From Alphaproteobacteria bacterium (GTDB lineage Bacteria; Pseudomonadota; Alphaproteobacteria; RF32; CAG-239): a stretch of DNA of 59,659 nt. How positions within the stretch are numbered: the stretch's first letter is position 1; the number at the start of each line of letters is the position of its first letter. The notes below the pieces were generated by a model. That model saw only the letters and a program-made list of their open reading frames with translations. It had not been told where the DNA came from and searched no databases. Below, one piece after another: positions 12,003 through 21,200 of this stretch. Both the position numbers and the translations under genes were made by a program. The DNA lies in the NCBI GenBank assembly GCA_017470165.1, contig JAFUEX010000018.1, positions 1 to 59,659 of the forward strand, given 5' to 3'.

Positions 12003-12440
12003 ATGTTGCAATCGGACAAAATTTTTATCTCTTGGGATGAGTTTCATCAGGATGTCAAAGACTTGTGCGTCAAAATCAAAGCCTCGGGTGAATATAACAA
12101 AATCGTGGCTATTTCTCGCGGCGGTCTGCTGCCGGCCGGAATTGTGGCCTACGAATTGGGAATTCGCAATTGTGCGGTCATTAATATAGCTACCTATGTC
12201 GGCGCCGAACATCTTAAACTCGACGAAATCGACCATCCGGAACAGGTGGGCGGTGTCGATGAGCATACGCTGATTGTTGATGACCTATCCGACAAGGGGC
12301 AAACTTTTCGCGTAATGCGGCGGGCGTTTCCTCGCGGTAAATATGTAACGATTTACGCCAAACCTGTCGGCAAATCGGAGGTTGATATTTTTGCCCGCGA
12401 ATTGGAAGACAAATGGGTGGTATTTCCTTGGGATGAATAG
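12003..12440 (+). CDS. gpt: Xanthine-guanine phosphoribosyltransferase
   Basis: This purine-salvage enzyme converts xanthine or guanine plus PRPP to XMP or GMP in the cytosol. The 145-residue product matches the compact Gpt type: VAISRGGLLPAGIVAYELG near residues 35-53 and the PRPP loop VDDLSDKGQT at 92-101, then YVTIYAKPVGK and a C-terminal WVVFPWDE, typical of bacterial XGPRT rather than Hpt. It starts at ATG 12003. It ends just upstream of the low-GC cassette and is the last native gene before it. Confidence 0.93.
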   Translation: MLQSDKIFISWDEFHQDVKDLCVKIKASGEYNKIVAISRGGLLPAGIVAYELGIRNCAVINIATYVGAEHLKLDEIDHPEQVGGVDEHTLIVDDLSDKGQTFRVMRRAFPRGKYVTIYAKPVGKSEVDIFARELEDKWVVFPWDE

Positions 12441-12490
12441 GACTTAAACAGTAAAGCAGCAATGCTGAGCAGTAAGTAAAAGGGTAAGGC

Positions 12491-12521
12491 GGCAGAATCG
12501 ATACATTTCTATTTTGGCTAC
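12491..12521. repeat. IS-end-like direct repeat, left copy
   Basis: A 31-bp sequence differing at only two positions from 17977-18007, in the same orientation. It contains ACATTTCTATTTTGGC (12503-12518). It marks the left border of the low-GC cassette, about 50 bases after gpt. It resembles terminal repeats of IS21-type elements. No transposase sequence is recognisable to its left. Confidence 0.65.
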
Positions 12522-12540
12522 GATATGCCTATGATTTGTA

Positions 12541-12568
12541 TTGACGATTTAGTTAAAAGTATTAGTAT
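12541..12568 (+). promoter_or_regulatory. Promoter of the AsnRS-like/methyltransferase operon
   Basis: TTGACG (12541-12546) and TAGTAT (12563-12568) are 16 bases apart, about 20 bases inside the left IS-end repeat. The predicted start is near 12575, followed by AAAGGAA and the ATG at 12594. The cassette thus brings its own promoter. Confidence 0.55.
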
Positions 12569-12593
12569 AGCAACGTATTTAAAGGAATTATAG

Positions 12594-13595
12594 ATGAAAG
12601 TACAAAAAAGTTCAAAAGAACATTTACATGATTTGTTTACAAATCCATGGTATAAAGTTTTGTTTGATACTTTTAGTGCAATTATCAGTTATACTCATGA
12701 ATTTTATAAACAAAAAGGATTAAGCCCTATTTTATTTCCAATAACAACTGGTTCCATTAGTTCTCCTATGGGAGAAGGAAGTGATTCACTTCCTGTTCAA
12801 ATCGAAATAAAAGGTAATAAAGTTTTTTTAGCTGATTCTATGCAATTTAGTTTGGAAGTGGGAACAAGACTTGCTGAAAAAGGGTGTTATTATATAATGC
12901 CTTCATTCCGTGGAGAGGAAGTAGATGAACGTCACTTAAATGAATTTTTTCACTCGGAAGCTGAAATACGTGGAAATCTTGATGATGTGATGCAATTAGT
13001 TACAGAATATATATTGTTCTTAGCTGATAACTTTTTAAAAAATAATCAAAAAGAATTAAAAATGTTTACGGATACAAGTCATATTGCTGAACTTGTTAAG
13101 TATCCAACGCGTCATTTCAGTAAAATTACCTATGCAGAAGCCCTCAAGATGCTTAGTGGTATTGAAAAAGCAATTAATATTGATGAGTATGGTAATAAAA
13201 TAATAACTAAATACGGAGAAAAATCACTGATTGCAAAATATGGCGAGTTTTGCTGGTTGACTGAATTGCCAGCTAAAATTGTGCCTTTTTATCAGGCATC
13301 AAAAGAAGATGATGCCCAAATAGCGAAAGCAGCAGACTTGTTAGCAGGAATAGGAGAAGTTGTTGGGTGTGGAGAAAGATGTGAAAAAGCAGATGAATTA
13401 TATAATTCACTTCAATATCATAACATACCGATTGATGGATATCAATGGTATTATGATATGAAAAAGTTGTTTCCTATACAGACTGCGGGATTTGGCATGG
13501 GAATTGAAAGATTTATTTTATGGCTTTTAAATCATGATGATATTCGTGATTGTATGCTGTTAATCCGTAATCACAGACAAATAAATTTTCCTTAA
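12594..13595 (+). CDS. AsnRS-like catalytic core protein (class II aaRS paralog)
   Basis: The 333-residue protein is a class II aminoacyl-tRNA synthetase core most like asparaginyl-tRNA synthetase. Motif 2 is FRGEEVDERHLNEF (about 105-118, Arg106), with the RHLxEF form of AsnRS. GEVVGCGERCEKADEL (255-269) corresponds to the AsnRS asparagine-site segment, and motif 3 is GFGMGIERF (299-307, Arg306). The OB-fold anticodon domain that normally comes first is absent, so it should not charge tRNA in the usual way. Family precedents are the archaeal asparagine synthetase related to AsnRS, and aaRS-like enzymes recruited to make aminoacyl adenylates. AAAGGAA precedes the ATG. The methyltransferase gene follows after 10 bases. 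A role in activating Asn or Asp for a small product is inference. Confidence 0.75.
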   Translation: MKVQKSSKEHLHDLFTNPWYKVLFDTFSAIISYTHEFYKQKGLSPILFPITTGSISSPMGEGSDSLPVQIEIKGNKVFLADSMQFSLEVGTRLAEKGCYYIMPSFRGEEVDERHLNEFFHSEAEIRGNLDDVMQLVTEYILFLADNFLKNNQKELKMFTDTSHIAELVKYPTRHFSKITYAEALKMLSGIEKAINIDEYGNKIITKYGEKSLIAKYGEFCWLTELPAKIVPFYQASKEDDAQIAKAADLLAGIGEVVGCGERCEKADELYNSLQYHNIPIDGYQWYYDMKKLFPIQTAGFGMGIERFILWLLNHDDIRDCMLLIRNHRQINFP

Positions 13596-13605
13596 GGAGT
13601 ATAAA

Positions 13606-14436
13606 ATGAACCTAAAAAAATTAACATCAAATGATATTGAAAAAATGTCTTACAATGAACTAATAGGTCTTGTTAAAGAAACTAACAGAATTCCTGGTGG
13701 ATCACAGACGATTGCTTATATATCTGCAATGAGTGGATTGCAACCTGGGAAAAAAGTACTGGATATAGGTACCAGTACCGGCAATACAGCAATTGAGCTT
13801 GCGAATTTATCTGGTGCTAATATTGTAGGCATAGATATAAATGAAAATAGTTTAGAGGAAGCTAGAAAGCGTGCGATATCTTGTAATTTGGATAAATTAC
13901 TTTCTTTTCAGCTTGATAACGCAATGCAACTATCCTTAGCGGATAAAACTTTTGATGTCGTCGTGTGCGGTAACGTTACATCGTTATTAAGCGACAGAAA
14001 GAAAGCTCTTTCAGAATACAAAAGAGTGTTGAAAGATACAGGTTTTTTGGTAGCTGTTCCGATGTACTACATAAAAAAGCCATCTAAACAATTAATAAGA
14101 GACGTATCAAAAGCAATACAAGTCGATATTAAACCATTATACAAGGATTTTTGGAAACAATTTTTTACCGAAGACGAATTTGATATTTTTATTGAAAAAG
14201 ATTTTGCTTTTGACCAACTATCGGAAGAACAAGTTGATAAATTTTGCGACTACATTTTATCAAGAAAACATCTACAAAATTTATCACCAGAGGCCGCTAT
14301 AACATTAAGACGCGTATATAGAGAATATATGCAATTGTTTAGATATAACCTGGCACATATGGGCTATACAGTAATGTTACTGAGAAAGAAAAATCCAGAC
14401 ATGGACCCAGAATTATTTACTGCTCATCCCATTTAG
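13606..14436 (+). CDS. SAM-dependent class I methyltransferase
   Basis: The 276-residue product has a Rossmann methyltransferase fold: motif I VLDIGTSTGN (51-60), the acidic residue after beta2 in GIDIN (Asp78), then FDVVVCGNV and a later helical region (EYMQLFRYNLAHMG). The substrate is unknown. It is second in the operon behind the AsnRS-like gene, with AAGGAG upstream. Its TAG stop overlaps by 4 bases the TAA stop of the convergent methyltransferase gene. It may tailor the product of the synthetase-like enzyme; that is inference. Confidence 0.75.
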   Translation: MNLKKLTSNDIEKMSYNELIGLVKETNRIPGGSQTIAYISAMSGLQPGKKVLDIGTSTGNTAIELANLSGANIVGIDINENSLEEARKRAISCNLDKLLSFQLDNAMQLSLADKTFDVVVCGNVTSLLSDRKKALSEYKRVLKDTGFLVAVPMYYIKKPSKQLIRDVSKAIQVDIKPLYKDFWKQFFTEDEFDIFIEKDFAFDQLSEEQVDKFCDYILSRKHLQNLSPEAAITLRRVYREYMQLFRYNLAHMGYTVMLLRKKNPDMDPELFTAHPI

Positions 14437-15305
14437 TTTTTACTAATCAATATTGTATAACAACCTGGGGAAATTGACAATTTCCCCATGGCTGTTATGT
14501 GCTTTGTTAAGTCAGTTTTTACTTCATTATAAATTTTTAACCACTCATCATCCGAACAATGATTAAATACACCCTCTAAATGAAAATTTAAGAAAATTTC
14601 TATTGCTTCATCAATATTTTCATAGGAAATACTGTCGCCACATAAGTGTTCAATCCTATAATTTACAATACCGTTGTTTTTAAGTTCTTCCAATGCTTCC
14701 AAGATTGTCTCTAACGATAAACTTTGTTTTTCCTTTCTATCGTATACATAAGACTTTTTAGCCCATTGCCTCATTAAAATAGTTTGTTCTTCTGAATGTG
14801 AATCAAAATGTATAATAAAAAAATATCCGTTTTTTTCTAAATTTTCACAAATAAATTTTTTTAAAATCCTATTAACATATTTTTTCCCTTCAGTTTCGTT
14901 TTCAAATTTTTCCAAGTTTTGATGAATAGAGTGAGAAAAACTCCAAAGGCTGAAACAGAAATTATAAACAGAAGAACATTGTGCCATAAAAGACAAACTG
15001 TCATTTAGTATAGCATCTTTTATATCGTATCTGATTTTGCTATAAGAAAGCATATCTCTGCTTAAATCTAAAATATCTAAATCAGAATTCGGACAAACAT
15101 CCAAGAAAGCCTTTGTTCCTCGACCTGTCCCGCATCCAAACTCTATACTTTTATCGGTGTAAGGTATATGCCGCAAAACTTCTTTGAATAATTCTATATC
15201 CGTTTTACCGGAAAAAGAATATGTTTTCAAAAGTTTTATATAGTAATCAGGAGGCAAATAATCCTCATGTTTACGCTTATTCATAATTTCACGAATATTT
15301 TTCAT
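14433..15305 (-). CDS. SAM-dependent methyltransferase, second of the cassette
   Basis: The 290-residue product shows motif I IEFGCGTGRG (54-63) followed by DLDILDLSRDML, the ribose-binding acidic position. The rest is Lys- and Asn-rich with a long helical C-terminal part. It is not obviously a close relative of the other methyltransferase in the cassette. Its ATG overlaps the stop of the S66 peptidase gene (ATGA, 15302-15305), so the two are translationally coupled. The substrate is unknown. It is the last gene of the minus-strand operon. Confidence 0.7.
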   Translation of the reverse strand: MKNIREIMNKRKHEDYLPPDYYIKLLKTYSFSGKTDIELFKEVLRHIPYTDKSIEFGCGTGRGTKAFLDVCPNSDLDILDLSRDMLSYSKIRYDIKDAILNDSLSFMAQCSSVYNFCFSLWSFSHSIHQNLEKFENETEGKKYVNRILKKFICENLEKNGYFFIIHFDSHSEEQTILMRQWAKKSYVYDRKEKQSLSLETILEALEELKNNGIVNYRIEHLCGDSISYENIDEAIEIFLNFHLEGVFNHCSDDEWLKIYNEVKTDLTKHITAMGKLSISPGCYTILISKN

Positions 15306-16333
15306 TTATTTTCAAACTCTAAAGACAAGTCATTTATATCAAGTTTTGCCACTTGTCCATACGGAAGCGTCATCATTGGCTCTGTGTGCCCAAAATCCAT
15401 TCTTGAAACAATTGGCAATTCAGGGTGGTTAAATTCTACAGAAACCACTCTTTTAGCGTACTCATCAAAAGCATCTAGCTTGGACATATCATCAAAAAAC
15501 TCTCCAGGACGACCTATTATTAATGCTCTTATTTGATCAAATACTCCCATTAGACCATAGTTTCTTAAACATTTCATAAAATAATTACAGCCTAAATTAA
15601 TATCTGAAAGCTCTAAAAATAAAATAGCATCCTTAAAATCCTCTAAACGAAAAAAGAAAGGAGTTCCTTTTAATAATTCCAAACTTTCCATACATCCACC
15701 TATAAGATGACCGCTAACATTTTTATTTCCCTGTAAAAGTTTTGGCTCACATCCTTTAATTAATTTACGTTTTATAAATTGATTATCAGGTTTTCCCCAA
15801 TCTAAAAATTCATTAGTCCACCCATCTTTGTTAGGATACAACTTAACTTTACCTTCTTCACAAATCATTTGTTTCAAGCACTCATATGAATATTTTTGCA
15901 TTCCACCATTTTCAGCAAAACCAGCCATTATCGTTGGGCCATAATATGATGTTATACCCAATTTATATAAATATACGTGAATTGCTGTTGCATCAGAATA
16001 ACCTAAAAATATTTTAGGATTATTTTTTATTATATCTTCATTTAGATAGCGTATTATGCGTACACTATCATTACCACCAATATTACATATTACAGCCTTA
16101 ACCTCGCTATCCTCAAATGCCTTCATAATATCTTGAGCTCTTGCTTCTGGATGGTCTTGTAACCATGGATGCGGCTTCAAGGAATTAGGCATTTCCTTTA
16201 CCCTAAAACCAAATTTATGCTTTAGTTCATTAATACCAGCATTGTATCTACTCGGAAATATATTTGCGGTTCCAAACGAAATTGATACTGTTGCAACTGT
16301 GTCTTGAGATTTTAATTTATTTGGAATGATCAT
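15302..16333 (-). CDS. MccF-like S66 serine peptidase (possible self-immunity)
   Basis: The 343-residue protein belongs to peptidase family S66. The triad is visible: Ser113 in GYSDAT, Glu241 in FLELSD, His316 in GHTEP. Positions and length fit MccF, which hydrolyses the bond between the amino acid and nucleotide in processed microcin C and in aminoacyl sulfamoyl adenosines. LD-carboxypeptidase A is the other S66 branch. GWTNEFLDW (171-179) resembles the Trp-bearing loop that stacks on the nucleotide base in MccF, which favours that branch. Its start lies 17 bases inside the MetRS-like gene, and its stop overlaps the methyltransferase start. An immunity role is suggested by family and company, not proven. 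Confidence 0.75.
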   Translation of the reverse strand: MIIPNKLKSQDTVATVSISFGTANIFPSRYNAGINELKHKFGFRVKEMPNSLKPHPWLQDHPEARAQDIMKAFEDSEVKAVICNIGGNDSVRIIRYLNEDIIKNNPKIFLGYSDATAIHVYLYKLGITSYYGPTIMAGFAENGGMQKYSYECLKQMICEEGKVKLYPNKDGWTNEFLDWGKPDNQFIKRKLIKGCEPKLLQGNKNVSGHLIGGCMESLELLKGTPFFFRLEDFKDAILFLELSDINLGCNYFMKCLRNYGLMGVFDQIRALIIGRPGEFFDDMSKLDAFDEYAKRVVSVEFNHPELPIVSRMDFGHTEPMMTLPYGQVAKLDINDLSLEFENK

Positions 16334-17726
16334 ATTTTTTCTCCAATATTGCTTGATTCACTTGAGATATCTTATTTGTGTAATTTAATTCCTTAATCAT
16401 ATTCGGAGCTATAGCTCCAATAACTTTAGTAATTATTGCGTGCCTATTTTTAACTTTTTTGATATCATAAGTATTTTTACCAATTTCTTTCAGATCATCT
16501 ATTGCCCATTGTTCTATCGTCGAAACAACTTTATTTACTCGACCGTTTAACACATGATTTTCTATAATTCTATATTCATCAGAATTAAAATCGATTATTG
16601 CACCGGACAATATAGGCGATGTCCTATGAAAATACTTAATTAGATTTTTATAAGTTCCGCTTAAAAATTGTTTATAATTATCTTCAGTCAGTTTATAGTC
16701 TTTAATTTTATCAGGAACTCTGGAAAGTACGAATAACCTAACACGGCTTAATTCTTCAGGAGTATATACATCTTGCGAGAGGATAGATGCATCATTTTCT
16801 TGGGTTAGACAAAATCCTCTTGCTTCGTATTTAATGTTCATTTGTTCAGCGTTGAATCCATATTTGAAAATAGTCGGCATAATTAAAGAATAGTAAGGCA
16901 AAATATTTTTTCCAAAATAACAAAAGTACTCCGACTCTTTAAGATCATTTGATACATTTTCTGGATTATTTGTTAATGGTAACAGTTTTGATATAAGAGA
17001 ATCATACCATAGATAAATTCTTTTATCTTTGTCAATAGGCATAACTCTGCCATAATTATTACGAGTGAAAACCCAAGTATTAAAGTTATTATCATATATT
17101 CCTTGCATATTTTGACAAACATTGGATGCCTGATCCTGTTGTTCTATCAATGAAGTTAAAAAAGAGGTTCTTGGGAGCTTAAGTTCCCACTGATGTTCCA
17201 TCCTTATTTCTACATTTTGGCCACCGCATAATCTACATTCTATATCTTCATTGATAAAATCATCAAGTTTATCATATTTTTTTAAGCGATTTTCCTCTTT
17301 AGATGTAATATTACATTCAGATTTAGAAAGTTCTTCATTACAATCACGGCAATAAAAAGTAGGGTCATCAACTTTTTCAATTAGCCCTTTATTTTGTAAG
17401 TTTTTAATTGAATACTCGACAAATTCATTCATTTTATCATTGTCAGAATCAATATACAAATCAGGCTCTATACCCCACAGTTTGAGAGTATTTCTAAACT
17501 TTGTCTTGCAATCATTTATATATTTATTTTTATTTTTCACCTCTTTTAGAGCTCTGTACGCGTGTTTACCATACACATCTACTCCTGCAACCAATGTACT
17601 GTCTTTACCAAAAACCTTTAGTAACTTGTTTAGTACATCCGCTGGAAGGTATGTGCTTGAGATATTGGTATACCGAATTTCAGCTGGAATAAAGACATTT
17701 GCAGTAGTGATTATATACTTTGTCAT
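16317..17726 (-). CDS. MetRS-like protein lacking HIGH and KMSKS
   Basis: The 469-residue product aligns by eye with methionyl-tRNA synthetase over most of its length. It has the opening strand KYIITTANVF, TYLPADV and GVDVYGKH, a zinc-knuckle insertion with CRDC (126-129) and CRLC (164-167), RIYLWYDSL, YFGKNILPYYSLIMP, and the helical part before the anticodon domain. Where HLGH is expected there is RYTN (about 19-22), and the KMSKS loop reads around ENDASILSQD (310-319), so normal ATP activation looks lost or changed. I chose ATG 17726 with GGAGA upstream; an earlier ATG adds 17 unlike residues. It is first in the minus operon and has its own promoter. It could be a repurposed ligase, a decoy target or a tRNA-binding partner. 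Confidence 0.7.
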   Translation of the reverse strand: MTKYIITTANVFIPAEIRYTNISSTYLPADVLNKLLKVFGKDSTLVAGVDVYGKHAYRALKEVKNKNKYINDCKTKFRNTLKLWGIEPDLYIDSDNDKMNEFVEYSIKNLQNKGLIEKVDDPTFYCRDCNEELSKSECNITSKEENRLKKYDKLDDFINEDIECRLCGGQNVEIRMEHQWELKLPRTSFLTSLIEQQDQASNVCQNMQGIYDNNFNTWVFTRNNYGRVMPIDKDKRIYLWYDSLISKLLPLTNNPENVSNDLKESEYFCYFGKNILPYYSLIMPTIFKYGFNAEQMNIKYEARGFCLTQENDASILSQDVYTPEELSRVRLFVLSRVPDKIKDYKLTEDNYKQFLSGTYKNLIKYFHRTSPILSGAIIDFNSDEYRIIENHVLNGRVNKVVSTIEQWAIDDLKEIGKNTYDIKKVKNRHAIITKVIGAIAPNMIKELNYTNKISQVNQAILEKKYDHSK

Positions 17727-17757
17727 AATAAAGTCTCCACCGATACACTTACAACTA

Positions 17758-17785
17758 TTATTATAAAATAACGCCAAAATGTAAA
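17758..17785 (-). promoter_or_regulatory. Promoter of the MetRS-like/MccF-like operon
   Basis: On the minus strand TTTACA (17785-17780) is followed after 16 bases by TAATAA (17763-17758), with an overlapping TATAAT at shorter spacing. The ATG is about 32 bases further on. Confidence 0.5.
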
Positions 17786-17812
17786 GTTTTTTGTGGGCTT
17801 AAGACCAGAAAT

Positions 17813-17935
17813 TTAAAGAATATTGCAGCATTTCACCAAATGTTGTCGTGTGTTCTTTGCGCTTGCGATAAGGTTCCCGCTTTCTTGTCCTGCCTCATTT
17901 AATTTGATTAATCCTAATATGTTTTCCATTCTCAT
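17813..17935 (-). pseudogene. Relic of an IS21-type transposase N-terminus
   Basis: A 40-codon frame starts at ATG 17935 behind AAGGGGAC. Its product opens MRMENILGLIKLNEAGQ, which recalls the helix-turn-helix N-terminus of IstA-type transposases (leucine-rich helix, then N-E-A-G-Q). It degenerates and stops after NTRQHLVKCC. It begins directly inside the repeated IS end (17964-18007), the right place for the first gene of such an IS. The identification is tentative. Confidence 0.4.
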
Positions 17936-17963
17936 GTCCCCTTATTTTTTTCTTTATTATAGG

Positions 17964-18007
17964 ACATTTCTATTTTGGCAGAAGCGGTACATTTCTATTT
18001 TGGCTAC
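17964..18007. repeat. IS-end repeats, right border of the cassette
   Basis: ACATTTCTATTTTGGC occurs twice, at 17964-17979 and 17989-18004, as in elements with multiple subterminal repeats. The 31 bp at 17977-18007 match 12491-12521 with two differences, in the same orientation. This is the right border of the cassette; native rpoB upstream DNA follows immediately. Confidence 0.65.
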
Positions 18008-18029
18008 TACATTTTGCAAAAAAAAGTTC

Positions 18030-18057
18030 TTGCTTTTATAAAATATTGTGCTATGAA
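18030..18057 (+). promoter_or_regulatory. Probable rpoB promoter
   Basis: CTTGCTTTT with TTGCTT at 18030-18035 and TATGAA at 18052-18057, 16 bases apart, resembles the promoter before rimP (CTTGCTTTT with TATAGG). This puts a promoter only 23 bases beyond the IS end, with a leader of about 200 bases to rpoB. A TTGACA at 18173-18178 could be a second promoter but lacks a clear -10. The leader shows no gene. Confidence 0.5.
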
Positions 18058-18271
18058 TCGCGCGTGTTTAAACATAATAATGCATTATTATTTTTGCCGT
18101 CCAATCGTCTGAAAATAAATAGTTTTTTAAATTGTGACGGGTTTGCGAATCGCATTTTAAATTGCGTTTTTTTTGACATATAGATGTTGTAACCTCTCGC
18201 GTACGGGATTCAGGTCGTGGGCTTGAAAAGTATTGGCGCGGGATTTTTAGCTAAAAAAGGATATTAATACG

Positions 18272-21200
18272 ATGAAAGAGTCTTATACGAGCAAAAGACG
18301 TGTAAGAAGAAATTTCGGCAGAATCGATGCTGTGGCGGATATGCCCAGCCTTATCGAGGTTCAGACCGGTTCTTATGATAATTTTATTTCCGCCGATGGA
18401 CATGATGCCAGCGAGTTCGGTTTGGAGGAAGTATTTAAGTCAATTTTCCCCATCAGAGATTTTTCGGGCAATGGTGAACTGGAGTTTGTAAAATACGAAC
18501 TGGAAACCCCAAAATATGATGTTGATGAGTGCATTAAGCGCGATATGACTTATGCGGCTCCGGTTAAGGCTACCTTGCGTTTGGTGGTATGGGATGTTGA
18601 TGAGGCGACTGGTGCCAAATCTATCCACGACATTAAGGAGCAGGATGTTTATATGGGCGATATTCCTTTGATGACCGACAAAGGAACGTTTATTTTCAAT
18701 GGCACCGAGCGTGTGGTTGTATCGCAGATGCACCGTTCGCCGGGGGTGTTCTTTGACCATGATAAGGGCAAAACGGTTTCGTCGGGCAAATATTTGTTTG
18801 CCGCGCGGATTATTCCTTATCGCGGTTCGTGGTTGGATTTTGAGTTTGATGCCAAAGATTTGGTTTATGTGCGGATTGACCGCCGTCGTAAGCTGCCGGT
18901 AACATCGCTGTTATATTCTTTGTATTCGAAAGAGACCATTGAGAAGATGGCTAAGCTGGAAAAGCAGGGTAAATATATGGACCGTTCCGAAATTAAGGGA
19001 ATGGACAAAGAAGAAATCCTTAATTATTTCTACGATGTTGACACTTATGAGGCGGATAAAAAGGGCTGGCGTGCAGCTTTTGATCCGACCAAGATGAAAG
19101 GTGTTAAATTTGATTTTGATTTGGTTGATGCCGACACCGGTGCGGTGGTTTGGGAAGCCGGTAAAAAATTGCCGGCGCGGGCAGCACAAAAGCTGGCAGA
19201 TAACGGATTGAAATTTTATCGCATTGCCAAGGAGAAGGTTATCGGTAAGTTCTTGGGCGCTAATTTGACAGCTCCGAAAACCAAAGAGATTTTGGCCGAG
19301 GTCGGTGATGAAATTACCAAAGAGTTGATGGACAAGATTGAGGAACAAAAAATCAAAGAGATTAAAACCTTGTTTATTGACGGGGTTAATGTCGGGCCGT
19401 ACATCCGCAACACAATGGCAATTGACAAAAATTCATGCCGTGAAGAGGCGCTGTTGGATATCTATCGGGTTATGCGTCCGGGTGATCCTCCGACATACGA
19501 GGCGGCCGACGCTTTGTTGTATGGCTTGTTCTTTGATAAGGACAGATATGATTTGTCATCGGTAGGACGGGTTAAGATAAATTCGGCAATGGATATTTCT
19601 TTTGATGATGCGCCGGATACCTTGGGCACCTTGCGTAAAGACGATATTTTGCGCATTGTGAAGCATATGGTTGAGCTGCGCGACGGCAAAGGCGAGGTCG
19701 ATGATATTGACCACTTAGGCAATCGTCGTGTGCGTTCGGTCGGTGAGTTGATGGAAAATCAATATCGGATGGGTCTGCTTCGGATGGAGAGAGCTATCCG
19801 TGAGAGAATGAGTTCTGAGAATTTGAATAATGTTAAGCCGCAAGATTTGGTGAATGCCAAGCCGATTGCTTCGGTTATCAGAGAGTTCTTCGGGTCTTCG
19901 CAGCTGTCACAGTTTATGGATCAGAACAATCCGTTGTCCGAGATTACTCACAAGCGTCGTTTGTCGGCGTTGGGCCCCGGAGGATTGAGCCGCGACCGTG
20001 CCGGATTTGAGGTACGCGATGTGCATCCGACGCACTATGGCCGTATTTGCCCGATTGAGACGCCGGAAGGACCGAACATCGGTTTGATTAACTCGCTGTC
20101 AACCTATGCGCGCATCAATAAATACGGTTTTATTGAATGTCCTTATCGTAAGGTGGTCAACGGCAAGGTAACATCCGAAGTGGTTTATTTGTCAGCGGAC
20201 GAAGAAGGTAAATACCGCATCGCGGAGGCCAATGCCAAGGTTAAAGATGACGGGCATTTTGAAGCAGAGTTGGTGGCTTGCCGCAAGGCCGGCGAGTTTG
20301 AGTTTGCCAAGCCGGAAGAAATCAACTTTATCGATGTTTCGCCGAAACAATTGGTGTCGGTGGCAACAGCGTTGATTCCGTTCTTGGAAAACGACGATGC
20401 TAACCGCGCATTGATGGGATCGAATATGCAACGTCAAGGTGTGCCTTTGCTGCGCTCGGAAGCGCCGTTGGTAGGTACCGGTGTTGAGGCCGTGGTGGCC
20501 AAAGATTCCGGTGCGACCGTTGTTTGTAAGGCTGACGGTATTGTTGACTCGGTTGATGCCAACCGTATTGTGGTGCGCTCAAAAGATGAGCACGCCGCCA
20601 ATGCCGGTGTGGAAATTTATCGTTTGTCGAAGTTCCGTCGTTCCAACCAAAATACCTGCATTAACCAAGTGCCGTTGGTTCATGTCGGTGACGAAGTTAA
20701 GGCCGGTGACATTATGGCTGACGGACATTGCACTGATATGGGCGAGCTGGCCTTGGGTAAGAATGTTTTGGTGGCATTTATGCCGTGGAACGGGTTGAAC
20801 TATGAGGATGCGATTTTGCTTTCCGAGAGGATTTCGCGTGATGATGTGTTTACCTCTTTGCATATTGAAGAATTTGAGGTAATGGCTCGTGATACAAAAT
20901 TGGGACAAGAGGAAATTACCCGCGATATTCCCAATGTCGGTGAAGATGCTTTGCGTAACTTGGATGAGGCCGGTATTGTATATATCGGTGCCGAGGTTAA
21001 GGCCGGAGATATTTTGGTCGGCAAGGTAACTCCGAAAGGTGAATCGCCGGTTACTCCTGAGGAAAAATTGTTGCGCGCTATCTTTGGCGAGAAGGCATCG
21101 GATGTTCGCGATACTTCGTTGCGGGTTCAGCCCGGTATTGAAGGCGTGGTGGTGGATGTTCACGTATTCTCCCGTCGCGGACTGGAAAAGGACGAACGCG

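Follow-up and report, generated by a model that had tools for sequence, protein, structure and literature searches.

The stretch of DNA considered here (the window) comprises 59,659 nucleotides from an alphaproteobacterium and carries, on contig C9 of the 1.45-Mb, 88.9% complete host genome, a cassette of five intact genes (12594-17726) in two convergent units (Table 1). The rightward unit encodes a protein related to asparaginyl-tRNA synthetase (AsnRS-like; Pfam tRNA-synt_2, 1e-39) and an S-adenosylmethionine (SAM) methyltransferase, MT1 (Methyltransf_11, 9.8e-22). The leftward unit encodes a protein related to methionyl-tRNA synthetase (MetRS-like; tRNA-synt_1g, 2.1e-27), a serine peptidase of the MccF type (Peptidase_S66, 1.1e-30), whose gene overlaps the ends of both neighbours, and a second methyltransferase, MT2, that Pfam recognizes weakly (Methyltransf_25, 3.3e-6). 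Inside the cassette the G+C content is 0.30-0.33 in 1-kb steps (about 31%); in the flanks (4 to 12 kb and beyond 18 kb) it is approximately 0.40-0.52, and in the region roughly 45%. The five genes, the two convergent units and the low G+C content had been described in an initial annotation of this DNA, and the intact frames and the composition bear this description out.

The same annotation took the genes for an acquired cassette that travels together, and proposed to look for all five in other genomes. When the MetRS-like protein was searched for in 153 genomes of the family, it matched in three, the host, G034 (83% identity) and G049 (64%), which belong to the same genus. The AsnRS-like and MT2 alignments, each searched separately, returned the same three of 153 genomes. 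In G034 and G049 all five genes lie together in the order and relative orientation found in the host, at other sites; the lack of any recurrence elsewhere, which the annotation had named as a refutation, is therefore not what is observed. The copies of host and G034 align continuously at 83% identity over 5265 columns, in a single block that takes in the intergenic promoter regions; the host and G049 copies align only for parts within the gene region. All five frames are intact in all three genomes. Of 15 gene pairs, 13 have a ratio of nonsynonymous to synonymous substitution rates (dN/dS) of 0.04-0.14, and for the other two saturation leaves it undefined; with dS often above 1 the values are rough. 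The divergence of the five genes indicates purifying selection.

The three insertion sites differ. The host copy lies upstream of rpoB (identified by reading its translation), the G034 copy near a ThsB/ThsA pair and the G049 copy beside a type III restriction-modification system. In G034 the Thoeris-like pair (L006 5754-7089; PADLOC ThsB TIR 8e-78, ThsA macro 1e-94) is about 2 kb from the cassette, and in G049 the type III system (L007 11213-18554; mod and res, PADLOC) begins approximately 160 bases from it. Because of the recurrence, the differing sites and the low dN/dS, we regard the five genes as a maintained, moving unit.

A scan of genome contigs for relatives returned just G034 and G049, and in a sample of 398 genomes of the phylum the MetRS-like protein was found at E <= 1e-15 in the host alone. 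MT1 had matches at E <= 1e-40 in four genomes of this sample, one of them the host; those in the other three are methyltransferases other than MT1 and have none of the remaining cassette genes within 20 kb. Scans of viral contigs gave no cassette relatives, save one short MT1-like stretch (L044); among phages the MetRS-like protein had no match and the AsnRS-like protein matched at 25-28% identity only. A weak MetRS match in Paraclostridium, where the annotation shows no cluster, and a Cytobacillus neighbourhood with MetRS and S66 genes, where no AgnA-type gene is listed, were set aside.

The lead to a function came from plasmids. A tblastn search of 72,556 plasmid records with the AsnRS-like protein (E <= 1e-15) gave matches in 58, of which 18 at 40-46% identity form a group including agnA of pAgK84, annotated 'Agrocin84-synthetase'; 4 from Bradyrhizobium match at 34% and 36 at <=29.5%. 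With one exception, the 36 are AsnRS or aspartyl-tRNA synthetase (AspRS) wherever the annotation names them. To AgnA itself the AsnRS-like protein is 40.6% identical, and MT1 is about 44% identical to the product of the gene directly after agnA. MT1 (E <= 1e-20) was found in 13 plasmid records, with partners in Xenorhabdus bovienii (47%), Streptomyces NBC_01707 (50%) and pAgK84-type plasmids (within 43-50%), and weaker ones in Exiguobacterium and Peribacillus (28-30%). Ten of the 13 records cover at least 80% of MT1, and in all ten, which represent five lineages (six records are of the pAgK84 type), a gene for an AsnRS-like protein adjoins that of MT1; the remaining three (57% coverage) are absent from the 58 AsnRS-like records. 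In nine AsnRS-like loci examined in detail, MT1 matched in five, an MccF-like protein in five (24-28% identity) and neither in three.

According to passages of PMC4392301, AgnA is a truncated AsnRS homologue that keeps the catalytic domain and serves in agrocin 84 biosynthesis. The product is described in parts of PMC5059758 and PMC7916415 as an N-acyl-phosphoramidate mimic of leucyl-adenylate; TM84, an N-acyl phosphoramidate, inhibits leucyl-tRNA synthetase (LeuRS), and AgnB2 is an immune LeuRS (PMC5059758, in part). We found no published proof of the chemistry of AgnA. In a MAFFT alignment the AsnRS-like protein of the cassette retains the FRGE of motif 2, the GIER of motif 3 and the arginine of GxGER. 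A tree of 16 sequences sets the AsnRS/AspRS group apart (support 100) and unites the three cassette proteins (100); other relations within the AgnA type are weak (23-91). Of the agrocin-type features the cassette has the AgnA-type core with class II motifs, the adjacent MT1 and an MccF-like gene.

Could the AsnRS-like protein belong to primary metabolism, as an asparagine synthetase of the AS-AR type, with the rest as unrelated baggage? The top NCBIfam model is indeed asparagine synthetase A (NF005055, E 1.5e-68), which all 11 AgnA-type and related proteins scanned also match. The score of 231 bits is below the cut-off of 389, however, the closest plasmid relatives are of the AgnA type and adjoin MT1 in all ten records with near-full-length MT1, and the genes move together between sites; we consider this explanation very improbable.

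The MetRS-like protein is an aminoacyl-tRNA synthetase paralog separate from the host enzyme. Six of six MetRS have the first histidine and the glycine of HIGH as well as S-x-S at the centre of KMSKS; none of the three MetRS-like proteins has any of these residues (alignment only). The parts played in amino acid activation by the residues of HIGH, KMSKS and motifs 2 and 3 are those known for these families. Charged tRNA would be at hand from the host's own enzymes, an AsnRS and a single MetRS over cut-off. A second, resistant MetRS was not found in the 88.9% complete host genome.

Truncated synthetase paralogs also occur in four of the five MT1-bearing plasmid lineages; in the cassette the MetRS-like protein occupies the corresponding position. 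In Exiguobacterium and Peribacillus the paralog is of the alanyl-tRNA synthetase (AlaRS) type, each cluster having a second, longer AlaRS (595 aa, over the NCBIfam cut-off), and in both paralogs motif 2 has changed from FFEM to YFKM. In Xenorhabdus and Streptomyces it is of the prolyl-tRNA synthetase (ProRS) type and seems to have lost the glutamate of motif 2 (MAFFT alignment against one host open reading frame, which is weaker evidence). The Exiguobacterium and Peribacillus plasmid loci (L012, L013), in which AgnA-type and MT1 genes stand with the truncated and the second AlaRS, look like clusters for aminoacyl-nucleotides of an alanine type, with a pairing as in AcmF/AcmD.

AcmF is portrayed in parts of PMC12945691 as a truncated AlaRS-like protein without most of the key ATP-binding residues, which moves alanine from Ala-tRNA, made by AcmD, the AlaRS of the same cluster, to the amino group of a nucleoside sulfamate. 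SbzA, a class I paralog, transfers isoleucine from Ile-tRNA onto a sulfonamide (PMC6331615, in part). Given the loss of activation-motif residues and these biochemical precedents, a role as a transferase dependent on aminoacyl-tRNA is more probable for the MetRS-like protein than one as a decoy; the initial annotation had left the choice between partner and decoy. That annotation had also pointed to a compound related to an Asn- or Asp-nucleotide. The aminoacyl-nucleotide part remains the best lead; if the MetRS-like protein is a transferase, methionine is a better guess for the final aminoacyl group than asparagine or aspartate.

MccF, as excerpts from PMC9239234 relate, releases nucleotide phosphoramide from aminoacyl-nucleotides, including aspartyl-nucleotides. 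From its similarity, the MccF of the cassette is likely a detoxifier conferring immunity, as had been suggested. Its family search found, besides the three cassette genomes, six genomes of another genus (G103, G111, G112, G115, G120 and G125) with MccF-like genes at E 6e-74 to 2e-102 and, at the cut-offs used, without a match to the AsnRS-like protein, the MetRS-like protein or MT2. Because these six have MccF alone of the four genes searched, the gene is not exclusive to the cassette. Such a distribution, and the standing of MccF as a known resistance enzyme (PMC9239234, in part), would suit a cassette for resistance only, in which MccF detoxifies aminoacyl-nucleotide antibiotics of neighbours and the other genes modify or sense them. 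Five conserved enzymes exceed the needs of detoxification, though, and AgnA is described as biosynthetic both in its annotation and in the passages of PMC4392301 cited above; we hold resistance only to be improbable.

Alternatively, MccF could itself be biosynthetic: the AsnRS-like protein would make an Asp- or Asn-nucleotide with an N-P bond, MccF would free the phosphoramide from it and the MetRS-like protein would add the final amino acid. The release of phosphoramide from aspartyl-nucleotides is the required activity, and mccF is tied by its overlaps to the MetRS-like and MT2 genes. In microcin C, on the other hand, MccF is known as the immunity protein, and the Exiguobacterium locus examined has no S66 match, which makes this variant quite improbable. 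MT2 had no match among the plasmid records; its AlphaFold model has a pLDDT of 59.0, and the 50 PDB matches listed for it contain SAM methyltransferases, some of them acting on small molecules, and give no finer lead.

Homology, motif state, synteny, recurrence and selection are directly supported. We propose on this basis that the cassette is probably a minimal mobile module that makes an aminoacyl-nucleotide similar to agrocin 84 and phosmidosine and also confers immunity to it. The product would be an amino acid N-linked to the 5'-phosphate of a nucleoside; as a stable analogue of an aminoacyl-adenylate it would inhibit an aminoacyl-tRNA synthetase. In a first step the AsnRS-like protein, with its class II ATP motifs, and MT1 would set up the P-N bond from asparagine or aspartate and ATP. 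The MetRS-like protein would then use Met-tRNA made by the host MetRS and transfer its methionine to the nitrogen of the nucleotide phosphoramide, in analogy to AcmF and SbzA; MT2 would decorate the product; and MccF would hydrolyse the aminoacyl-N bond and so protect the producer. For the second step we rely on the precedents of AcmF and SbzA, and for the last on the published activity of MccF; all four steps, like the product, its amino acid and the activity of the cassette, are inferred.

Several observations weigh against this proposal. Among the nine plasmid loci, four have no MT1 match (L011, L016, L017 and L018) and four no MccF match (L011, L012, L016 and L017). On pAgK84 itself no truncated synthetase is annotated in the 25 kb examined, only LeuRS. 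The cassette contains no resistant full-length synthetase, no exporter and no dedicated transport or acyl/sugar genes within the five-gene unit ending at 12531/17792, and no nucleoside-modifying enzymes besides the methyltransferases, unlike the larger clusters. The motif argument also has its limits. The first lysine of KMSKS is present in five of the six MetRS in the alignment, some true MetRS read HLGN or carry threonine for the second KMSKS lysine, and the ProRS-like proteins apparently keep the motif-2 arginine. Because SbzA retains HIGH- and KMSKS-like motifs (HYGH and AMSKA; PMC6331615, in part), motif loss is not required for tRNA-dependent transfer. The AlphaFold model of the MetRS-like protein, made from three sequences, has a mean pLDDT of 36.7. 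Xenorhabdus has its ProRS-like protein together with a full LeuRS, and the paralog therefore need not name the target of inhibition.

The missing exporter also bears on where the product acts. Because two of the three copies adjoin defence systems (ThsB/ThsA at about 2 kb, the type III system directly), an intracellular role is possible: in a toxin-antidote or anti-phage module the nucleotide would stay inside and be destroyed by MccF, and translation would stop if infection, for instance, disturbed MccF or its supply. Such an arrangement would be in keeping with two units that each have promoter-like boxes. Nevertheless MT1 is the only one of the five proteins with PADLOC matches, to the methyltransferase stretch of mad2 (2.8e-21) and weakly to MTase_II (0.0032), the third copy lies between genes read as housekeeping (rpoB, phosphoribosyltransferase), and synteny favours antibiotic clusters, co-location at three loci being weak evidence. 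We regard a module of this kind as unlikely. Slightly more doubtful is a specific form of the idea, that a MetRS-derived, ATP-independent transferase puts methionine on a nucleotide phosphoramide and that the product of the exporterless cassette acts inside the cell, in a defence or addiction module moving among defence loci of small-genome Alphaproteobacteria.

The repeats at both borders reported in the initial annotation are present in the host. The 16-bp sequence ACATTTCTATTTTGGC occurs three times in one orientation, just outside the unit, where 0.14 copies are expected; with up to one mismatch there is no further copy in the 88.9% complete host genome, and there is no exact copy in L006 or L007. 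The repeats may be insertion-sequence ends. A short broken frame (17775-17945, minus strand) lies between the promoter region of the MetRS-like gene and the right repeats and is possibly a transposase remnant. In the two nearest relatives similarity to the right flank starts at about 18019. In none of 11 relatives does the left-hand neighbour of the cassette lie in the 1.5 kb before rpoB, and this part of the genome (window 12003-18272 in the host) may be a junction that varies within the genus.

As for a promoter of its own for each unit, also claimed earlier, promoter-like boxes upstream of both units are common to G034, read by eye only, and the gap of 14 bases between the -35 and -10 boxes of the MetRS-like unit is short. 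The TATAAT box of this unit (17760-17765), which the G034 copy also has, sits between the two candidate starts of the MetRS-like gene. The ATG at 17726 is therefore a likelier start than the TTG (17777) with which the mechanical open reading frame begins.

Table 1. Features of the cassette and its borders (window coordinates).
Feature	Position	Strand	Basis
Left copy of the 16-bp direct repeat, just outside the cassette	12503..12518	+	Repeat count
Mobile cassette unit	12531..17792	.	Continuous 83% identity to the G034 copy, intergenic promoter regions included
Putative sigma-70-like boxes of the AsnRS-like/MT1 unit, TTGACG-N16-TAGTAT	12541..12568	+	Read by eye; G034: TTGACA-N16-TAGTAT
AsnRS-like ligase, AgnA type, without anticodon domain; 333 aa	12594..13595	+	FRGE (motif 2) and GIER (motif 3) retained
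MT1, SAM methyltransferase, partner of AgnA-type ligases	13606..14436	+	Pfam, plasmid homologues
MT2, weakly recognized SAM methyltransferase	14433..15305	-	Pfam; without plasmid match
S66 serine peptidase, MccF type	15302..16333	-	Pfam
MetRS-like pseudo-synthetase, 469 aa, HIGH and KMSKS residues lost	16317..17726	-	Pfam, alignment
Promoter-like boxes of the MetRS-like unit, TTTACA-N14-TATAAT	17760..17785	-	Read by eye; identical in G034
Right border, two more copies of the 16-bp repeat	17964-17979, 17989-18004	+	Repeat count

The initial annotation could name no described system with such genes. This has to be corrected: the core of AsnRS-like protein, methyltransferase and MccF is that of pAgK84 and related plasmid clusters. 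The core is already known from agrocin 84 and the transfer principle from AcmF and SbzA. Searches of open-licence PubMed Central papers turned up neither a member of the MetRS type, nor the combination of one with the AgnA/MT1 core, nor a minimal form of five genes. The review PMC12945691 has 0 occurrences in its main text of agrocin, phosphoramid, phosmidosine or MetRS.

The clusters suggest a modular logic, in which a core of AgnA-type ligase and MT1, often with MccF, is combined with an exchangeable, activation-impaired synthetase. The latter may choose the amino acid: alanine, proline or, here, probably methionine. If this is true, the products of uncharacterized clusters become more predictable, the origin of the P-N bond of agrocin 84 can be tested in a five-gene system, and aminoacyl-nucleotide chemistry reaches small-genome alphaproteobacteria, raising the question of an intracellular use of such a nucleotide.

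Among known systems, the agn cluster of pAgK84 also has an AgnA-type ligase beside an MT1-type methyltransferase, and its agnC5 product is 28% identical to the MccF of the cassette. It differs in having the resistant LeuRS AgnB2, further agnC/agnD genes and an ABC transporter nearby, instead of which the cassette has the MetRS-like pseudo-synthetase and MT2, without an exporter. Microcin C shares with the cassette the MccF-type S66 peptidase and the aminoacyl-nucleotide chemistry; none of the five cassette proteins has a Pfam match to the ThiF type of MccB, a short precursor peptide not having been searched for.

PyrN and Spb40, described in parts of PMC8664883, are likewise MetRS-like proteins of specialized metabolism and are hydrazine-forming. 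Unlike the transferase proposed here, they use ATP for amino acid activation and have a cupin and an N-hydroxylase as partners, neither of which is encoded in any of the three cassette copies. AcmF of ascamycin and SbzA of SB-203207/8 biosynthesis, as far as the passages cited above describe them, are synthetase paralogs in metabolite cassettes, and the lack of most ATP-binding residues in AcmF resembles that of activation-motif residues in the MetRS-like protein; AcmF and SbzA are of the alanine and isoleucine types with sulfamate or sulfonamide acceptors, whereas the cassette protein is of the methionine type.

Phosmidosine contains proline and 8-oxoadenosine. It is a phosphoramidate nucleotide (PMC6429109, in part), and thus has the chemistry proposed for the cassette product. 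On a plasmid of Streptomyces sp. NBC_01707 (L015) AgnA-type and MT1 genes stand with those for a molybdopterin oxidase, a ProRS-like protein and an MccF-like LD-carboxypeptidase. By its gene content this locus is a candidate phosmidosine-like cluster; unlike the cassette, it is actinobacterial and larger.

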